From positions 58,984 through 122,983 of the forward strand of contig PLLA01000121.1 of assembly GCA_003140835.1 (NCBI GenBank): a DNA stretch of 64,000 nt, given 5' to 3'. This document shows, piece by piece, positions 25,817-35,157 of the stretch. Both the position numbers and the translations under genes were made by a program. Every line of letters starts with the position of its first letter. The first letter of the stretch is position 1. The notes under the pieces were generated by a model. That model saw only the letters and a program-made list of their open reading frames with translations, had not been told where the DNA came from and did no database searches. The stretch is from Candidatus Tumulicola scandinaviensis. Lineage in GTDB: Bacteria > Vulcanimicrobiota > Vulcanimicrobiia > Vulcanimicrobiales > Vulcanimicrobiaceae.

Positions 25817-26209
25817 CTAGGTAGGCGGGAGTTCGAAGCGCATGCTGACCGTCGTCCCCGATTCTGTCTGCAGATCCACCGAATGCGCGATGGAGCGAAC
25901 GATCCGAAGACCGAATCCGCGGTTGGGACGCGGCTTTGGCTGAGCGAACGTTCCGCGGTCGACGACTTCCACTGCGAGAACGTCGTCGGACTCCACCCGC
26001 GCGACGATTTTGACATCGCCGACCGGACCGTTGCGGTAGGCGTGTTCGACGGCGTTTGCCAGCGCTTCGCCGACGGCGGTGATAACGTCGAGCCGAACCG
26101 CCTCGGGAATCTCGAGGGCGCGCAAGAACTCCGAAAGTGCGTGTCGCATCGGTGCCGCCGTTTCGGCCTGGGCCCTGCGTTCGAGGCTAAATTGGCCCCG
26201 TGGCATCAC
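25817..26209 (-). CDS. RsbW-type HATPase anti-sigma serine kinase
   Basis: The 130-residue product is a bare GHKL ATPase domain: N-box 'VGEALANAVEHAYRNG', G1 box 'VVDRGTF' and G2 region 'RGFGLRIVRSIA'. RsbW-like proteins bind a sigma factor or another partner and phosphorylate an STAS antagonist. Its gene overlaps the STAS gene by four bases (ATGA), giving the order phosphatase, antagonist, kinase on one transcript. No sigma factor gene adjoins, so the target could be elsewhere or non-transcriptional. Confidence 0.92.
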   Translation of the reverse strand: MMPRGQFSLERRAQAETAAPMRHALSEFLRALEIPEAVRLDVITAVGEALANAVEHAYRNGPVGDVKIVARVESDDVLAVEVVDRGTFAQPKPRPNRGFGLRIVRSIAHSVDLQTESGTTVSMRFELPPT

Positions 26210-26532
26210 GAAGCGCGCTCGAGATGGGCCATCGCGTCGCCGCGATTTTCGAAAATGTCGAACACTTCGTGAAGCCCGGCATACCGGATGATGCGGTCCA
26301 ACTGGGGGCCGTTCACGACGACTGCGACCGGCAATCCGTGCTGCTCGGCGTGCATTCGAAAACGGAGCAGTTCGGTCAGCGCGGTCGAGTCGGCATAGGT
26401 CACGTCGCTCAGGTCGACCAGAACACCGCGCATTTCCGCCTCGACGAACAGGGCACGATGCAGCTCTTCTTTGCGCGCGATGTCAAGCTCTCCGGCCAGC
26501 GTCACCACTTCGAAGGCAGGCTGCGCTTTCAC
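26206..26532 (-). CDS. STAS-domain anti-sigma factor antagonist
   Basis: The 108-residue product is one STAS domain of the RsbV/SpoIIAA type: 'VVTLAGELDIARKEELH', 'VLVDLSDVTYADSTALTELL' and 'IIRYAGLHEVFDIFENRGDAM'. Ser in ADSTALTEL is the expected phosphorylation site. When dephosphorylated by the upstream SpoIIE-type phosphatase it should bind the HATPase kinase and free its partner. Start and stop overlap both neighbours by 4 bases, which supports equal production of the three proteins. Confidence 0.93.
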   Translation of the reverse strand: MKAQPAFEVVTLAGELDIARKEELHRALFVEAEMRGVLVDLSDVTYADSTALTELLRFRMHAEQHGLPVAVVVNGPQLDRIIRYAGLHEVFDIFENRGDAMAHLERAS

Positions 26533-27962
26533 GCGGACTTCCTCGCAGCCAGCACCGGCTCCGATGCGAATCCGATGGTCAAAATCGCGACGTCGTCGCC
26601 AACCAGCCGGCTTTCGAAAATCGAGCGATAAATCGCCGCAGCCGCATCCGCGCCGCCCGGACCGGCGGCAATCGCATCGAGCAGCATCCGTTCTCCATCG
26701 ATGATATTCCGCGAGTGTTCCACGGCACCGTCCGTATAGAGTACCAACATGGCTCCGGGTACCGTCTCGACTCGATGCACGTTATAGACGGGTTTCTCTG
26801 ACACGCCCAGCGGCAATCCTCCAAAAGCAAGCAGGCGCGGCGACTTGCCGGGCTCGACCAGAATTGGCGGAGGGTGACCGGCCGTCGAGTATTCGAACGA
26901 ATACGTTCCGGCGTCGGCCACACCAACGATTGCCGTGACCATCGGAGAGGCCGCATCGCCGCGCATGAGGTGATCGTTCACGTGCGTAAGGATCGATTGG
27001 GCGTTCGAGTCCAACAAGGCTGCCGTCAGCACTTCATCCCGAACTCGCCGCATCGCGACCGCCGCGTTGAGGCCGTGTCCGGCAATGTCGCCGATCGAGA
27101 AGAGAATGCGGTTGGGCCCGATCTCGAACGCGTCGTACCAGTCCCCGCCGACTTTGGCCTCCTCGGTGGCCGGCACGTACGTCGCGCTGAAGCTCATCGA
27201 CGGTATATTCGGCAACGTCCGCTGCAAGAACGCGTCTTGCAGCGTATCGGCGACGCGCCGTTCCGATTCGTAAGCGGCCCGCAACTCGCGTTCGCGCATT
27301 CGCGCTTCCTCACGCTGTTGCCGCACGGCATCGAGCCGGTTCCACGCTCGCGCCGTGAGGAGCGCAAACGTCAAGCCGATGCCGAGCAACAGCAACGCTG
27401 CAACGACGATCAAAATGCTCAAGCGAGTGAGCTCGGCCTGGAAGGCGTCGCGCAGTTCGTCGTGGCGCACGGCCAGGTCTTGTTCGGCGGCCTCCCTGTC
27501 GAAACGAAAGCGGTCGACGAGACTCTTTCCAAGCCTTTGCAGCGATAGCGAGTTTGGGGCGCGTCGCGTGAGCATAGGCGTTGCAACCAAATCGTTCCAG
27601 GCGTCGTTCGTCCGCTGCATCTCGCGCACGGCGGTGACCGCCGAGGGCAAGCCTAGTTCCCGCAAAGCAGCCTCGAGATTCGGGAGCAGACGCGGCATTT
27701 GCGCTCTTCCCGTTTGGTATGGCTGAAGAAACGCTGGATCGCGGGTGCCCAAATACCCGCGAAGACCGGTCTCTTCGTCGAGCTGGGCCTTGATGGCGGC
27801 AAACAGCAGCGTTCTCGCGTCGCGAACGCTCTGTTCGGTATCGAACGTAGCCGCGACCGAGTTACGGATTAGCACGCCGGCAGACAGCAAGACCACGACG
27901 ATCGCTACGAGCGCGATAACCCATGGCGTGATCCACGGGATGATCGTGCGCCTAAGAGCCAT
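26529..27962 (-). CDS. Membrane SpoIIE/RsbU-type PP2C phosphatase with CHASE3 sensor
   Basis: The product is 477 residues. TM1 is at about 12-37 and TM2 at about 178-205, with a CHASE3 periplasmic sensor between ('LDEETGLRGYLGTRDPAFLQPY' region). A coiled coil follows ('RQQREEARMRERELRAAYESE'). The PP2C phosphatase covers about 255-470, with metal Asp residues in 'VGGDWYDAF', 'GDIAGHGLNAA' and 'GDDVAILTI'. It dephosphorylates the STAS protein encoded next, so an external signal is passed to the kinase by partner switching. Divergent from the EEP nuclease gene. Confidence 0.92.
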   Translation of the reverse strand: MALRRTIIPWITPWVIALVAIVVVLLSAGVLIRNSVAATFDTEQSVRDARTLLFAAIKAQLDEETGLRGYLGTRDPAFLQPYQTGRAQMPRLLPNLEAALRELGLPSAVTAVREMQRTNDAWNDLVATPMLTRRAPNSLSLQRLGKSLVDRFRFDREAAEQDLAVRHDELRDAFQAELTRLSILIVVAALLLLGIGLTFALLTARAWNRLDAVRQQREEARMRERELRAAYESERRVADTLQDAFLQRTLPNIPSMSFSATYVPATEEAKVGGDWYDAFEIGPNRILFSIGDIAGHGLNAAVAMRRVRDEVLTAALLDSNAQSILTHVNDHLMRGDAASPMVTAIVGVADAGTYSFEYSTAGHPPPILVEPGKSPRLLAFGGLPLGVSEKPVYNVHRVETVPGAMLVLYTDGAVEHSRNIIDGERMLLDAIAAGPGGADAAAAIYRSIFESRLVGDDVAILTIGFASEPVLAARKSA

Positions 27963-28882: not shown

Positions 28883-30709
28883 ATGCAGGGTGTTTCGGCG
28901 CCGTTTCGCCGCGAAGCGGTAGCGGCTTTCGTTCTGGCAGCCGGGCTAACCGGCTGTGCCGGCCACGGTTCGGCCGGCTCGGCCATTCCAATGGGTTCGC
29001 AGGCACAGCGCATTGCGACCGGACCGCTCTCGATCGCGCGCAGCGCGCGCATGGTGCGGGAGCTGGCGGGGCGCGGTTCGGGTGCGACGGGGCCCCGGAC
29101 GCCCGGCGCCGGCTATCCGGTGACCGCCGATCCGCGCGTCTCCCATCCGGCCGAGACTCCGTGCGTCGACAAGCTGTTCGATCCGCACACGCCGCCCCTC
29201 AATCCGAGCGGCTTGCCGGTCGGCGACTTCGCCGACTACGCGGATCACCCGTTCAACTACTCGCCACCGTCGAGTTGCCCGGGTCCGTACGCCAAGATCG
29301 TCTTTAAGATGCACTTCCGGGTCACGGCAGGCGTGCAATACGACCGCACCGGCGCGGTGTGGATCGGCGGGACGAACGTGTTCTTCGGAACGACGGCTGA
29401 ACCGGGGCAAAATGCGAGTCCGGAGTGGACCGTCGAGCGCGACGTAACCGAATACGCCCCCATCTTCGCGCAAGCGTCGACCGGTCAAGCTTCGGTCTAC
29501 AACATCGTCAACTCGCAGTACACCGGCATCATCTATGGAAGCGCCGAGCTCGATTTTTATCCGGCCACCACGCAGTTTCCAGCCGGTCAAGCTGCCGATG
29601 CGGTCTATCCGCTATCGGCCGGACCGGCGGGCGGCTACGTTTTCCTCGACGGCCCCAGCAATCAGCTGACCGGCTCGTTCACCTTCCCGCAGAACGTCGA
29701 AGCGGCATACCTCGACGTGTTCCTCGAGTCGCAATCGGGCGACGAATTCTGGTATACGTGCTTCCCGAACGACCTCGCCCAGAAGCTCAATAACTGCGGC
29801 GGCACGGCGTTTCGTGAAGGCGAGGTCACCGTTGACGGACAACCGGCCGGCGTCGCTCCCGTGTATCCATGGATCTACAGCGGCGGAATCGATCCGTATC
29901 TTTGGGTTCCGATTCCCGGCGTCGAAACGCTCGACTTCAAACCGTATCGCGTCAATCTCACGCCGTTTGCGGCGTGGTTTGACGACGGGAATCCGCATAC
30001 GATCGCCGTTTCGGTCTTTAACGACGACAACTACTTTGCGACCAACGCCGCCTTGCTCGTGTACGAAGACCATGGCTCTTCGCAAGTTACCGGCGCGCTG
30101 GTTAGCAACGGAACGGCGATCGCGCCGGCACAAACGGTGGTCGAACACGTGAAGTTCGATCGATCCGGCAATGCTAAGGGCACGATCGAGGTTTCGGCAA
30201 CGCATCCGGTCAGCCTGAAAGGGTACGTAAACACGTCGCACGGGCGGGTGACGACGCGCGTGGATCAACGGATCGCCTTCTCGAACGACCAAACCATCGA
30301 CAGCACGTCTACCGAGTTTCTGCAGAACATCGACCAGCGGACGACGGTGACGTCGGACGCAACCACGATCTCCAACAACCGGACGCTCAGATCCCACGAC
30401 CAGACCGTCTGGCCTCTCGGCTTGAAGTACCTCTATACCGTGCAAGCCAGCAATGCGACGCAAAACGCCGCCATCACGCAAACCAAGAGCGACAACGGGC
30501 TGGTTCAACGGCGCCGCGGCACGGACACCTGGCTGCTGCAGAACTCCGTGAATTCGTCGGATACCCTGACCTTCACCAGTTCCGGCTACTCACCGTCGAA
30601 CGGCGCGAGCAGCCAGCGGTATAAATCGCTCGGCATCGACGGTCGGTGCTACGAAGAAACGCTCAAGTCCAAAAACTACGCGATCACCAGCATAACGAAA
30701 GGGTGTTAA
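28883..30709 (+). CDS. PNGase A-like lipoprotein (N-glycan amidase family)
   Basis: ATG 28883 is 8 bases after GGAGG. The 608-residue product has a lipobox LTGC (Cys25). The mature part matches the peptide-N4-asparagine amidase A family of plants and fungi block by block: 'YDRTGAVWIGGTNVFF', 'EWTVERDVTEYAPIF', 'NSQYTGIIYGSAELDFYP', 'SGDEFWYTCFPND', 'AFREGEVTVDG', 'YPWIYSGGIDPYLWVPI' and 'YRVNLTPF'. Those enzymes release complete N-glycans from glycopeptides. A bacterial, lipid-anchored member suggests digestion of plant or fungal glycoproteins, or another amide-linked glycan. It is one base from the next lipoprotein gene. Confidence 0.85.
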   Translation: MQGVSAPFRREAVAAFVLAAGLTGCAGHGSAGSAIPMGSQAQRIATGPLSIARSARMVRELAGRGSGATGPRTPGAGYPVTADPRVSHPAETPCVDKLFDPHTPPLNPSGLPVGDFADYADHPFNYSPPSSCPGPYAKIVFKMHFRVTAGVQYDRTGAVWIGGTNVFFGTTAEPGQNASPEWTVERDVTEYAPIFAQASTGQASVYNIVNSQYTGIIYGSAELDFYPATTQFPAGQAADAVYPLSAGPAGGYVFLDGPSNQLTGSFTFPQNVEAAYLDVFLESQSGDEFWYTCFPNDLAQKLNNCGGTAFREGEVTVDGQPAGVAPVYPWIYSGGIDPYLWVPIPGVETLDFKPYRVNLTPFAAWFDDGNPHTIAVSVFNDDNYFATNAALLVYEDHGSSQVTGALVSNGTAIAPAQTVVEHVKFDRSGNAKGTIEVSATHPVSLKGYVNTSHGRVTTRVDQRIAFSNDQTIDSTSTEFLQNIDQRTTVTSDATTISNNRTLRSHDQTVWPLGLKYLYTVQASNATQNAAITQTKSDNGLVQRRRGTDTWLLQNSVNSSDTLTFTSSGYSPSNGASSQRYKSLGIDGRCYEETLKSKNYAITSITKGC

Positions 30710-30710
30710 T

Positions 30711-31649
30711 ATGGTCAAAACGCTTACCGTTACGATTAGCTTCGCCGCCGCGGCGGCGTTAACGGCCTGCAATGGAGCCAACGTTTCCTCGGTTCCACCG
30801 ATGCAGACGGCGGCCGCTCCGACGGCAATCAAGGCTCCAGCGAATACGGCCTATGTATTACGCGACGCGCAGGGGCGCGCCGTTCAGGGTGCACACGTCA
30901 TGTTGACGCGCCCGGGCGCCGAGCGCCTTCGTCCGAACCGCCGGACCAACAACCTCAACTACTACGGCGGCCCCGTCCAAACCACGCCGTCGATTTACGT
31001 CGTTTTCTGGGGCTTCACCAGCGATCCGTCGGGCGAGGCAACGCGTGTCGTGAACTTCCTCAATGCCGTGGGCGCGTCGCAATGGCTGAATACGGTCACC
31101 CAATACTACCAATCGGGTCCCGTTCACATCTCTAATCCCGCCGGTCAGCTCAAGGGCAGCTGGTACGACAATTCGAGCGTCCCGGCGCATCCGACCGACT
31201 CCCAGGTGGCGGCCGAATCCGTGAAGCTGGCACAGCACTTCGGCGTCTACAGCGAAAATGTTTCGTACGTCGTCGCGACTCCGACCGGTCACAGCACTTC
31301 CGGATTTGGGACGCAATGGTGCGCCTACCACAGCGTTACCAGTTCGAATGGCGCGACCATTCCCTACACGAACTTCCCCTACATGACCGATGCCGGCGCG
31401 TCGTGCGGAAAGAACTCCGTCAACGGCGGACCGGCCGGATTGCTCGACGGCGTCACGATTGTCGGTGGCCACGAACTTGCCGAAACGCAGACCGATCCTG
31501 GCGCGGGCAACGGTTGGCTCGATTCGCACGGCAGCGAGATCGGCGACAAGTGCGCGTGGACGAACCTGCAAAACACGAGCTTCGGCCAATACGGCTCCTT
31601 CCCAACGCAACCGCTCTGGAGCAACTCCGCCGGCGGGTGCGTGCAATAG
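30711..31649 (+). CDS. EXORDIUM-like lipoprotein with a putative HELAE metal site
   Basis: The 312-residue product has the lipobox LTAC (Cys20). Its core resembles the phosphate-induced/EXORDIUM family: 'NNLNYYGGPVQTTPSIYVVFWG' near residue 80, 'QWLNTVTQYY' near 125, and 'GLLDGVTIVGGHELAETQTDP' near 245. Unlike plant EXORDIUM, it has His254-Glu255-x-x-Glu258 followed by Asp271, Glu276 and Asp279 ('SEIGDKC'), a pattern that could bind metal and hint at a peptidase, though this is not proven. Four cysteines (WCAY, SCGK, KCAW, GGCV) may pair. Coupled to the PNGase A-like gene, so both should face the same exterior substrate. Confidence 0.7.
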   Translation: MVKTLTVTISFAAAAALTACNGANVSSVPPMQTAAAPTAIKAPANTAYVLRDAQGRAVQGAHVMLTRPGAERLRPNRRTNNLNYYGGPVQTTPSIYVVFWGFTSDPSGEATRVVNFLNAVGASQWLNTVTQYYQSGPVHISNPAGQLKGSWYDNSSVPAHPTDSQVAAESVKLAQHFGVYSENVSYVVATPTGHSTSGFGTQWCAYHSVTSSNGATIPYTNFPYMTDAGASCGKNSVNGGPAGLLDGVTIVGGHELAETQTDPGAGNGWLDSHGSEIGDKCAWTNLQNTSFGQYGSFPTQPLWSNSAGGCVQ

Positions 31650-31680: not shown

Positions 31681-34600
31681 ATGCAGCTGATCGATGGCCA
31701 CCTCATCTATTCGGCCAGCGACCTCAATAACTACCTCGAATGCAAGCGCCTAACCGAGCTCGATGCCTTGGTGGCGCGCGCGAAGATGCAACGGCCGCCG
31801 GATGACGACGACGCGCAAGCGCAACTCATCCGGCGCAAGGGCGAGGAACACGAGCGACGTTTTCTCGGCGAAATGCAGCTGCTCTACGGAGAGCAGGTCG
31901 TCTGTTTTGGGCGTCCCGACTCCAATCTCGAAGCGTTTGCTTTAGCCGAACGCCAAACGCGCGCCGCAATGGCGTCGGGCGCGCCGATCATCTACCAGGC
32001 GACGTTTTTCGACGGCCGGTTCGTCGGCCATGCGGACTTTCTGCGCCGCATCGAAACCCCTTCGGCGCTGGGCGCGTGGAGCTACGAGGTTCTCGACACC
32101 AAGCTCGCGCTGCTGACCAAGCCATACTATTTAGTGCAGCTCTGCAACTATAGCGAGCATCTCGAGCGGATCCAAAGGTTGGCGCCCGCGCATGGCTACA
32201 TCGTGCTCGGGAACGGCGAAGAAACTCGCTTCCGCCTGTACGACTACGCCGCGTACTATCGCCACCTCAAGGCGGCGTTCTTGGCCTTCGCCGGAGATCC
32301 GGAACGCGCCGCCGCAAACGCTCCGGGCGAATATCCGCTCAAGTGCGAGCACTGCAAGATATGCCCGTGGGACGCCAAGTGCAGGCAGCAACGAATCGAC
32401 GACGATCACTTGAGCCTGGTTGCGTGGATGCGCCGCGATCAGATTGCCAAATTCGCCGAGGCCGGCATCGGAAGCGTGGCGACGCTGGCGACGGCATCCG
32501 ACACGGCGCTCCCCAAGGGCATGAGTGCGCAGACGTTTCAAAAACTGCGGCGGCAGGCGGCGATTCAAGTGCGCGGCCGAACCAAGGGCCCGCTCTACGA
32601 GTTGCTGCACCACGAACCGCCGATGGGCTTCGCGCTGTTGCCCGAACCGGCACCCGGTGATGTGTTTTTCGACATGGAAGGCGACCCGTATTACGAGCCG
32701 GGACGCTCGCTCGAGTACCTATTCGGCTGTTGGCTGCCCGGCGACGAACCTCGGTACCGCCCCTTTTGGGCGCTCGATCGCGGCCAGGAGAAACATCGCT
32801 TCGAGGAGTTCGTCGACTTCATCGTCGCGCGCCGCCGCGCATACCCGGCGATGCACGTTTACCACTACGCACCCTACGAAAAGGACGCACTCCGGCGCCT
32901 GGCGCAAGCGCACCGCACCCGCGAAGACGCCGTCGACGACCTGTTGCGCGGCGAAGTTCTGGTCGATCTCTACGCCGTGGTCCGGCAATCGCTGCTCATA
33001 TCCAAGGAGAGTTACGGGCTCAAACGGCTGGAAGATTTTTACGGCTTGCAGCGTGAGACCGGGATCAAGAAGGGTGACGATTCGATCGTCATGTTCGAGC
33101 GCTGGCTGTTGGAAGGCGATCCCAACATTCTGGCCGATATCGCCGACTATAACCGGGACGACTGTCTTTCGACGTATTTGCTGCGCGAGTGGCTGGCGCA
33201 ACGGCGTCTCGACGCAATATCGCAGCTGAGCCTCGAGGTTCCCTACCGTCCGGTGAAACTGCCCGGCGAGCCGTGTCACACCGAGTTCCTGGCCAACTGC
33301 TCGAAATGCGAGCAGCGCCGAAAGGACGAACGCGAACAGCAGCGGCTTACGGACATCGAGCGTACGCTGCTTGCCGACGATTCGGACGACGCCCAGGTGC
33401 ATCACTTGCTCGCACACCTGCTAGCCTACCACCGGCGCGAAGAGAAACCGGAATACTGGGCGTACTTCGACCGCCGCGAGAACGTCGACCGTTTGCTCGA
33501 GGACGGCGAAGCGCTATTCGGACTGACGCTCCGCGATGACGTCGCGCCCGAGAGCGTTGCGCGGAGTTACGTCTACACGTATCGTTTTCCGGATCAACCG
33601 CACAAGATGGCGGCAGGCGACACCCCGCACGACCCGTCCGCCGACCCGTACAAAAACGCCGGCACCATTATGGCCATCGACGAAGATCGAAACGAACTGC
33701 GCTTAAAGCGTACCGGATCGATCGACGAAGCACGCACCGTTACGGCGCTCATTCCGCGGCACCCGCTGCCCACCGACGTGCAACGCAAGGCGCTGAAGAG
33801 AATCGCCGAAGCCTTCCTGGCCGGCCGGCTCGACGAATGCCGGGCGACGTTCGATCTGCTCGCGGCTCGCAATCCGCGCGTGTCGGGCCGCGGCAGCGGC
33901 GTTATTCAACCCGAACCCGTCACCGCGGCGGCCGTATCGGAAATCGTGCAATCGCTCGACAACAGTTACCTGTTCGTTCAAGGGCCGCCCGGGAGCGGTA
34001 AAACGACCAGCGGCGCGTACGTCATTTGCGACTTGCTGCAACGCGGAAAGCGCGTCGGCATCACCAGCAGTGGGCACAAGGCCATTCATAACCTGCTCCG
34101 CAAAATCGAGTGCGAGATGACGGCGCGCGGCGCACATTTCCGTGGGCTCTATAAATATAGCGGCGCCAACGCCGGGTCGAAGTACGAATCGCCCTTACCC
34201 GATGCATTCGTCGAATCTACCGACGACAACAAGGCCTTCGACGGCGACGACTATGCCTTGGCGGCCGGCACGTCGTGGCTGTTTGCGCGCGACGAACTCG
34301 TGGGCCGGTTCGACTACCTCTTCGTCGACGAAGCCGGGCAGGTCTCGCTCGCCGACGCAATTGCCGTGTCGGCAAGCGCCCATAATCTAGTCCTGATGGG
34401 CGATCCGTCGCAACTTGCGCAGGTCAGCCAGGGCGTGCATCCGCCGTACGCCGGAGGCTCGGTCTTGCAGCACGTGCTGGGCGAGGACCACACCGTCCCG
34501 CCGCAGCGCGGGATCTTTCTCGACGTTTCCTATCGCATGCAGCCCGAGATCTGCGCGTTAGTCTCGGACGCCATGTACGATTGCCGCCTCAAACCTGCCC

Positions 34601-35157
34601 GCGATACTTTTCTTCACCGGGCGATCGTCGACGATCGGACTTACGCCGGCCTGTATTACCTGCCGGTCGAACACGCCGGCAACCGCTCGAGTTCGCCGGA
34701 AGAGGCAGACCGCATAGTGCGCGAGATCGCGCGGCTGCTTGCGGGCACGCTCGTCGACTCGCAACCGCCATGGCGCGGCATCGAGCGCCCGATCTCGCAT
34801 AGCGACGTCATCGTCGTGACGCCCTACAACGTGCAGCGCCGGCTGATCGCACGCAAGCTCGCCGAAGCCGGAATCGACGTGCGAGTCGGAACCGTAGACA
34901 AATTCCAAGGCCAGGAAGCTGCGGTCGTGTTCTATTCGATGGCCACGTCGGCCGGCGACGACGTGCCCCGCGACCTCCAGTTTCTCTTCGAACGCAATCG
35001 CTTCAACGTCGCCATCTCGCGGGCGCGCGCGATGAGCGTGCTCGTCTGTAGTCCGCGGCTGCTCGACGTCGACTGCCGGACGCCCGAGCAGATGGCACTG
35101 GTGAACCTGCTGTGCGCCTTTGCCGAGGTCGCACACCGCTATACGCCGGCCGGTTGA
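31681..35157 (+). CDS. TM0106-type RecB-like nuclease fused to SF1 helicase
   Basis: The 1158-residue product has three parts. First, a Cas4/RecB-like PD-(D/E)xK nuclease (about 1-240): 'FVGHADFL', 'YEVLDTKLA', 'LVQLCNYSEHL', with likely [4Fe-4S] cysteines (Cys22, and Cys222, 225, 228, 234 in 'CEHCKICPWDAKC'). Second, an RNase H-like YprB-type domain (about 325-510): 'DVFFDMEGDPYYE' and 'DYNRDDCLSTYLL'. Third, a superfamily 1 helicase: Walker A 'GPPGSGKTTSG' near 770, 'LFVDEAGQVS', 'TVDKFQGQEA' and 'NRFNVAISRAR'. This should be a DNA-processing or repair enzyme. It stands alone; no defence genes adjoin. Confidence 0.92.
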   Translation: MQLIDGHLIYSASDLNNYLECKRLTELDALVARAKMQRPPDDDDAQAQLIRRKGEEHERRFLGEMQLLYGEQVVCFGRPDSNLEAFALAERQTRAAMASGAPIIYQATFFDGRFVGHADFLRRIETPSALGAWSYEVLDTKLALLTKPYYLVQLCNYSEHLERIQRLAPAHGYIVLGNGEETRFRLYDYAAYYRHLKAAFLAFAGDPERAAANAPGEYPLKCEHCKICPWDAKCRQQRIDDDHLSLVAWMRRDQIAKFAEAGIGSVATLATASDTALPKGMSAQTFQKLRRQAAIQVRGRTKGPLYELLHHEPPMGFALLPEPAPGDVFFDMEGDPYYEPGRSLEYLFGCWLPGDEPRYRPFWALDRGQEKHRFEEFVDFIVARRRAYPAMHVYHYAPYEKDALRRLAQAHRTREDAVDDLLRGEVLVDLYAVVRQSLLISKESYGLKRLEDFYGLQRETGIKKGDDSIVMFERWLLEGDPNILADIADYNRDDCLSTYLLREWLAQRRLDAISQLSLEVPYRPVKLPGEPCHTEFLANCSKCEQRRKDEREQQRLTDIERTLLADDSDDAQVHHLLAHLLAYHRREEKPEYWAYFDRRENVDRLLEDGEALFGLTLRDDVAPESVARSYVYTYRFPDQPHKMAAGDTPHDPSADPYKNAGTIMAIDEDRNELRLKRTGSIDEARTVTALIPRHPLPTDVQRKALKRIAEAFLAGRLDECRATFDLLAARNPRVSGRGSGVIQPEPVTAAAVSEIVQSLDNSYLFVQGPPGSGKTTSGAYVICDLLQRGKRVGITSSGHKAIHNLLRKIECEMTARGAHFRGLYKYSGANAGSKYESPLPDAFVESTDDNKAFDGDDYALAAGTSWLFARDELVGRFDYLFVDEAGQVSLADAIAVSASAHNLVLMGDPSQLAQVSQGVHPPYAGGSVLQHVLGEDHTVPPQRGIFLDVSYRMQPEICALVSDAMYDCRLKPARDTFLHRAIVDDRTYAGLYYLPVEHAGNRSSSPEEADRIVREIARLLAGTLVDSQPPWRGIERPISHSDVIVVTPYNVQRRLIARKLAEAGIDVRVGTVDKFQGQEAAVVFYSMATSAGDDVPRDLQFLFERNRFNVAISRARAMSVLVCSPRLLDVDCRTPEQMALVNLLCAFAEVAHRYTPAG

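Follow-up and report, generated by a model that had tools for sequence, protein, structure and literature searches.

Bacterial PNGase A enzymes have been in print since 2014 and were described again in 2020 (PMC4231336; PMC7348039). PNGase H+ of Terriglobus roseus frees core alpha-1,3-fucosylated glycans and works best at about pH 2.6 (PMC4231336), and a panel of bacterial PNGase A enzymes, including that of Dyella japonica, has been characterised, with negligible activity for several acidobacterial candidates (PMC7348039). EXORDIUM (EXO) influences plant growth, its molecular mode of action being unknown (PMC3691544), and one bacterial EXO-like protein, in Solibacter usitatus, and no others, was reported in 2009 (PMC2661892). 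These publications speak against regarding bacterial PNGase A as undescribed or EXO-like proteins as confined to plants and fungi; an earlier note on the DNA considered here had called both families typical of plants and fungi.

The window, i.e., the whole stretch of 64,000 nucleotides that was analysed, comes from a soil bacterium and harbors a gene related to each of these families, referred to here as ORF 1 and ORF 2. ORF 1 would bring a new phylum to a known and useful enzyme family, and ORF 2 may provide a handle on the old question of how EXORDIUM acts.

Locus and predicted lipoproteins

ORF 1 (28883..30709, plus strand) starts with an ATG at 28883, downstream of a GGAG Shine-Dalgarno sequence, ends with a TAA stop codon at 30707-30709 and encodes a predicted lipoprotein of 608 aa of the PNGase A / PNGase H+ type of peptide:N-glycanase. 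It is followed on the plus strand by ORF 2 (30711..31649), which encodes an EXORDIUM/Phi_1-related HExxE protein of 312 aa, likewise a predicted lipoprotein. The junction reads TAA, T, ATG, the ATG of ORF 2 being at 30711, and this one-base gap suggests that the two genes are cotranscribed in the source genome (a 4.0-Mb assembly, 92% complete), where ORF 2 may also be translationally coupled to ORF 1. Both proteins start with a signal peptide that runs up to a lipobox cysteine. Read directly from the sequence, the lipoboxes are LTGC near residue 25 of ORF 1 and LTAC, ending at Cys20, in ORF 2; lipoboxes can also be found in many relatives of ORF 1 and of ORF 2. The coordinates of both genes, their one-base separation and the predicted lipid anchor on both proteins stand as the earlier note had given them.

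ORF 1 and the PNGase A family

That the first protein belongs to the PNGase A family and keeps its conserved blocks, as had been proposed, is borne out by profile comparison. PF12222 matches residues 122-409 of ORF 1 (29246..30109, plus strand, corresponding to G000:C11:88229-89092 in the source genome) with E=1.7e-54 and 185.3 bits (cut-off 25.3), covering positions 28-333 of the 336 in the profile, and PF25156 (PNGase_A_C) matches residues 435-506 below its cut-off (E=5e-4). Of the relatives with a solved structure, PNGase Bb (PDB 9vla) ranks first, and its structure contains a MUXF glycopeptide. PNGase Bb is retrieved by sequence with E=5.7e-51, and by the AlphaFold model of ORF 1 with a fold-search E=4.3e-38 (TM 0.76/0.85); in the structural alignment, identity is about 24%, and the match does not extend to the anchor segment of ORF 1. 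In the fold search, 9vla is followed by PNGase F and its relatives, which is consistent with a common core. PNGase F and PNGase F-II (1pnf, 3ks7, 4r4z, 7zgn) catalyze the same reaction and are matched with E values of about 1e-5 to 1e-7, but their overlap with ORF 1 is partial (TM 0.3-0.55) and they are not detected at the sequence level. Across an alignment of 19 ORF 1 relatives, D154 (in QYDR), R155, E173, E288, R311, E312, and D396 are invariant, and D154-R155 would be the counterpart of Asp60 and Arg61, the residues named for PNGase F (PMC12753239).

ORF 1 thus adds one more member to an already described family. Like PNGase H+ from T. roseus, the Dj enzyme from D. japonica and others, it would be a secreted bacterial PF12222 protein of about 600 aa. 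Unlike PNGase H+, ORF 1 has a lipobox and comes from another phylum, and its activity is a predicted one, most likely that of a surface acid N-glycanase. PF12222 is present in 26 of 149 genomes of the phylum Vulcanimicrobiota (Candidatus Eremiobacterota), and also in 35 of 150 genomes of one acidobacterial family, whose PF12222 genes share about 34-47% identity with ORF 1. A match above cut-off can also be found in a control genome, that of the archaeon Sulfolobus acidocaldarius, so that the PNGase A family reaches beyond plants, fungi, and bacteria.

ORF 2, its HExxE site and its relation to EXORDIUM

The likeness of the second protein to EXORDIUM, also claimed in the earlier note, survives as a remote one and not as a family match above cut-off. 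None of the Pfam and NCBIfam models matches ORF 2 above its cut-off, and Phi_1 (PF04674) gives no match. Over the whole 4.0-Mb genome, PF04674 yields just two weak matches (E 0.016 and 0.21), both to ORF 2 paralogues at C11:141-143 kb, and it matches 5 of 25 ORF 2 relatives weakly (best E=2e-4). Some proteins of other phyla do lie above the Phi_1 cut-off, e.g., a bacterial bridge protein in locus L211 (79 bits). This protein matches the ORF 2 family with an hhalign probability of 99.7% (E=1.2e-25) and ORF 2 itself by BLASTP with 30% identity over 256 columns (E=5e-19). The alignment passes through HELSE/HELAE. The bridge makes ORF 2 a distant relative of EXORDIUM, with homology over about 250 residues that includes the HExxE segment; in a further locus, L212, a Phi_1 match at residues 304-361 covers the HExxE at 324. 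The likeness is thus real but remote. In contrast to accepted Phi_1 / EXORDIUM members, ORF 2 scores below the family cut-off; it also carries HExxE, which plant members, in line with the earlier note, are not known to have.

The HELAE motif that had been pointed out in the second protein is indeed present, at residues 254-258. It opens the segment HELAETQTD (residues 254-262; 31470..31496, plus strand), in which HExxE is joined by an Asp, and is carried by a predicted helix (residues 246-261). Of 109 family sequences, 106 have an intact HExxE, with H254, E255, and E258 kept in 106, 108, and 107 of the 109, respectively, and the motif is kept in records from Vulcanimicrobiota, Acidobacteriota, Chloroflexota, Actinomycetota, and Pseudomonadota. 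C204, H207, C232, D262, W269, E276, C281, and C310 are invariant in the 109 sequences, and the conservation of H254, E255, E258, D262, C204, H207, E276, and D279 across the several phyla represented amounts to 97-100%. Beside HExxE, candidate third metal ligands are D262, E276, and D279. The combination of HExxE with invariant Cys, His, and acidic residues suggests a metal-dependent hydrolase, which would most likely be extracellular and most likely a peptidase.

The model of ORF 2 has a mean pLDDT of 79.6, with a good core and low values for residues 1-47. In a fold search of the PDB, nothing reached E 0.001. The best solved folds are the metzincins ADAM17 and fragilysin, and because their E values are 0.01 or worse and TM is at most 0.35, a zincin fold can be suggested only. 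Zincin metallopeptidases also carry the HE motif on a helix, but ORF 2 has HExxE where these have HExxH. Searches for PDB relatives of ORF 2 by sequence and by profile returned none that was convincing.

The family is large: one scan gave at least 525 related stretches, and among the matches listed, most of the closest relatives with a named record are Candidatus Eremiobacterota (Vulcanimicrobiota) MAGs. Bacterial relatives of EXORDIUM are widespread, and in the literature no report was found of HExxE in an EXORDIUM context. ORF 2 represents a new branch within the Phi_1 superfamily, one marked by HExxE, and it is this part of the locus that merits attention. With a large bacterial set in which HExxE is near-invariant, the EXORDIUM question becomes directly testable.

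In the family tree, ORF 2 falls among sequences of other genomes, and its two paralogues in the source genome form a separate, fully supported clade. These paralogues are arranged in tandem about 51 kb downstream (G000:C11:141572-143640; L028, L029, L055). Other relatives (L072, L073) have Pro-Thr-rich linkers and an additional C-terminal domain, an architecture that suggests modular secreted forms. The histidine of HExxE is lost in full-length copies in L126 (from about 2621), L132 (from about 8834), and L080 (1492-2457), where GGEFGAS, GGLYGAS, and GGEQAE can be read. In L126 and L132, the motif-less copy adjoins an intact one. Motif-less copies may be pseudoenzyme partners.

Adjacency of the two genes and competing readings

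The reading preferred here, with a probability of roughly two in three, is that of two separate lipid-anchored neighbours brought together by chance, ORF 1 baring peptide and ORF 2 acting as a metal-dependent hydrolase. The earlier note had instead seen a paired exterior deglycosylation system. In such a working pair, the PNGase would bare the peptide and the HExxE protein would cleave or bind it, both on the cell surface. The shared strand, the one-base gap and the lipobox on both proteins are in keeping with it, as is the co-occurrence of the two families above chance by simple counting, the ORF 2 family being present in 21 of the 26 PNGase A genomes of the phylum (Fisher p=1e-5 by genome and 0.006 by genus, relatedness and genome size being ignored). 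However, the arrangement does not recur. When PNGase A surroundings of several kb (less at contig ends) were searched by tblastn with ORF 2 and 24 diverse relatives, none of the 25 other PNGase A genomes of the phylum, a same-genus genome included, had an ORF 2 relative nearby. Nor did any turn up in 44 more PNGase A loci, most of them acidobacterial or actinobacterial, of which roughly 1.5 kb to either side of the domain was read, and a conserved ORF 1-ORF 2 pair was rejected on these counts. The sole other near co-location, in one of 80 named ORF 2 loci, is that of a Streptosporangiaceae MAG (L163), with PNGase A about 9 kb off. The same-genus genome, G108, keeps the SpoIIE, STAS, kinase, and phosphatase genes, with PNGase A on the other side of this block and the closest ORF 2 relative some 45 kb from PNGase A. 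The PNGase A gene is without any conserved neighbour, and the recurrent neighbours of the ORF 2 family elsewhere are tandem copies of that family only. No other genome that was searched has the two genes as neighbours, an outcome that the earlier note had itself named as refuting its reading, so ORF 1 and ORF 2 probably do not form a single system. The feature that made the finding striking, the pairing, is not supported; a working pair is very unlikely, and a recent juxtaposition is the best reading of the arrangement.

The catalytic roles given to the two proteins have rivals of their own. A serious one is that the ORF 2 family consists of secreted binding or structural proteins and not of enzymes, HExxE being a structural leftover. 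Plant EXORDIUM is usually treated as a binding or structural protein. A non-enzymatic role would agree with the unknown molecular mode of action of EXO (PMC3691544), with the persistence of motif-less tandem copies at full length and with the weakness of the peptidase fold matches, but the 97-100% conservation of the putative metal-site residues in 109 sequences and the position of the motif on one predicted helix, as a metal site would need, argue against it and leave it doubtful. A wider scenario, in which the EXORDIUM/Phi_1 superfamily derives from widespread secreted bacterial HExxE metallopeptidases, plant EXORDIUM has lost the site and ORF 2 is one of the bacterial enzymes, is likewise put forward as a tentative one. 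Regarding ORF 1, the PNGase A fold could serve another amide or glycan bond, e.g., in fungal, algal, or archaeal glycoproteins, and not plant N-glycans. This would fit with the match in S. acidocaldarius and with the negligible activity of several acidobacterial candidates (PMC7348039), but ORF 1 closely matches PNGase Bb in both sequence and fold, and the structure of PNGase Bb was solved with a plant-type MUXF glycopeptide, which makes this reading rather unlikely.

Returning to the reading of separate neighbours, ORF 1 and ORF 2 would be two secreted, lipid-anchored proteins placed side by side by chance in one genome. ORF 2 would belong to a widespread bacterial Phi_1/EXORDIUM branch, with HExxE and near-invariant C204, H207, D262, E276, and D279, and would act as a metal-dependent extracellular hydrolase. 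Homology, motifs, lipoboxes and the want of a conserved pairing come out of the computation, and activity, substrate, metal and anchoring are predicted from it. The gain from ORF 1 would most likely be the peptide, bared for proteolysis, over the glycan as food. Access to peptide is favored because the usual mannosidase and fucosidase families are absent: no GH92, GH38N, or GH29 was found in the source genome, which has a single weak GH20 match. Glycan catabolism is thus unlikely in this genome, in which, at 92% completeness, absent glycosidases might be missed. An N-glycan utilisation locus was also considered and rejected, given the absence of GH92, GH38N, and GH29 and the neighbours of the two genes, namely an exchanger, a SpoIIE/STAS/kinase cassette, a phosphatase, a nuclease-helicase, and hydantoinases.

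With regard to these surroundings, a row of histidine-kinase-like ATPase, STAS, and CHASE3-SpoIIE phosphatase genes (25817-27962) looks like a partner-switching regulatory cassette, and its gene order is kept in G108. On the other side, a large protein combining an RNase H-like nuclease domain with an AAA helicase (31681-35157) starts 31 bases past ORF 2.
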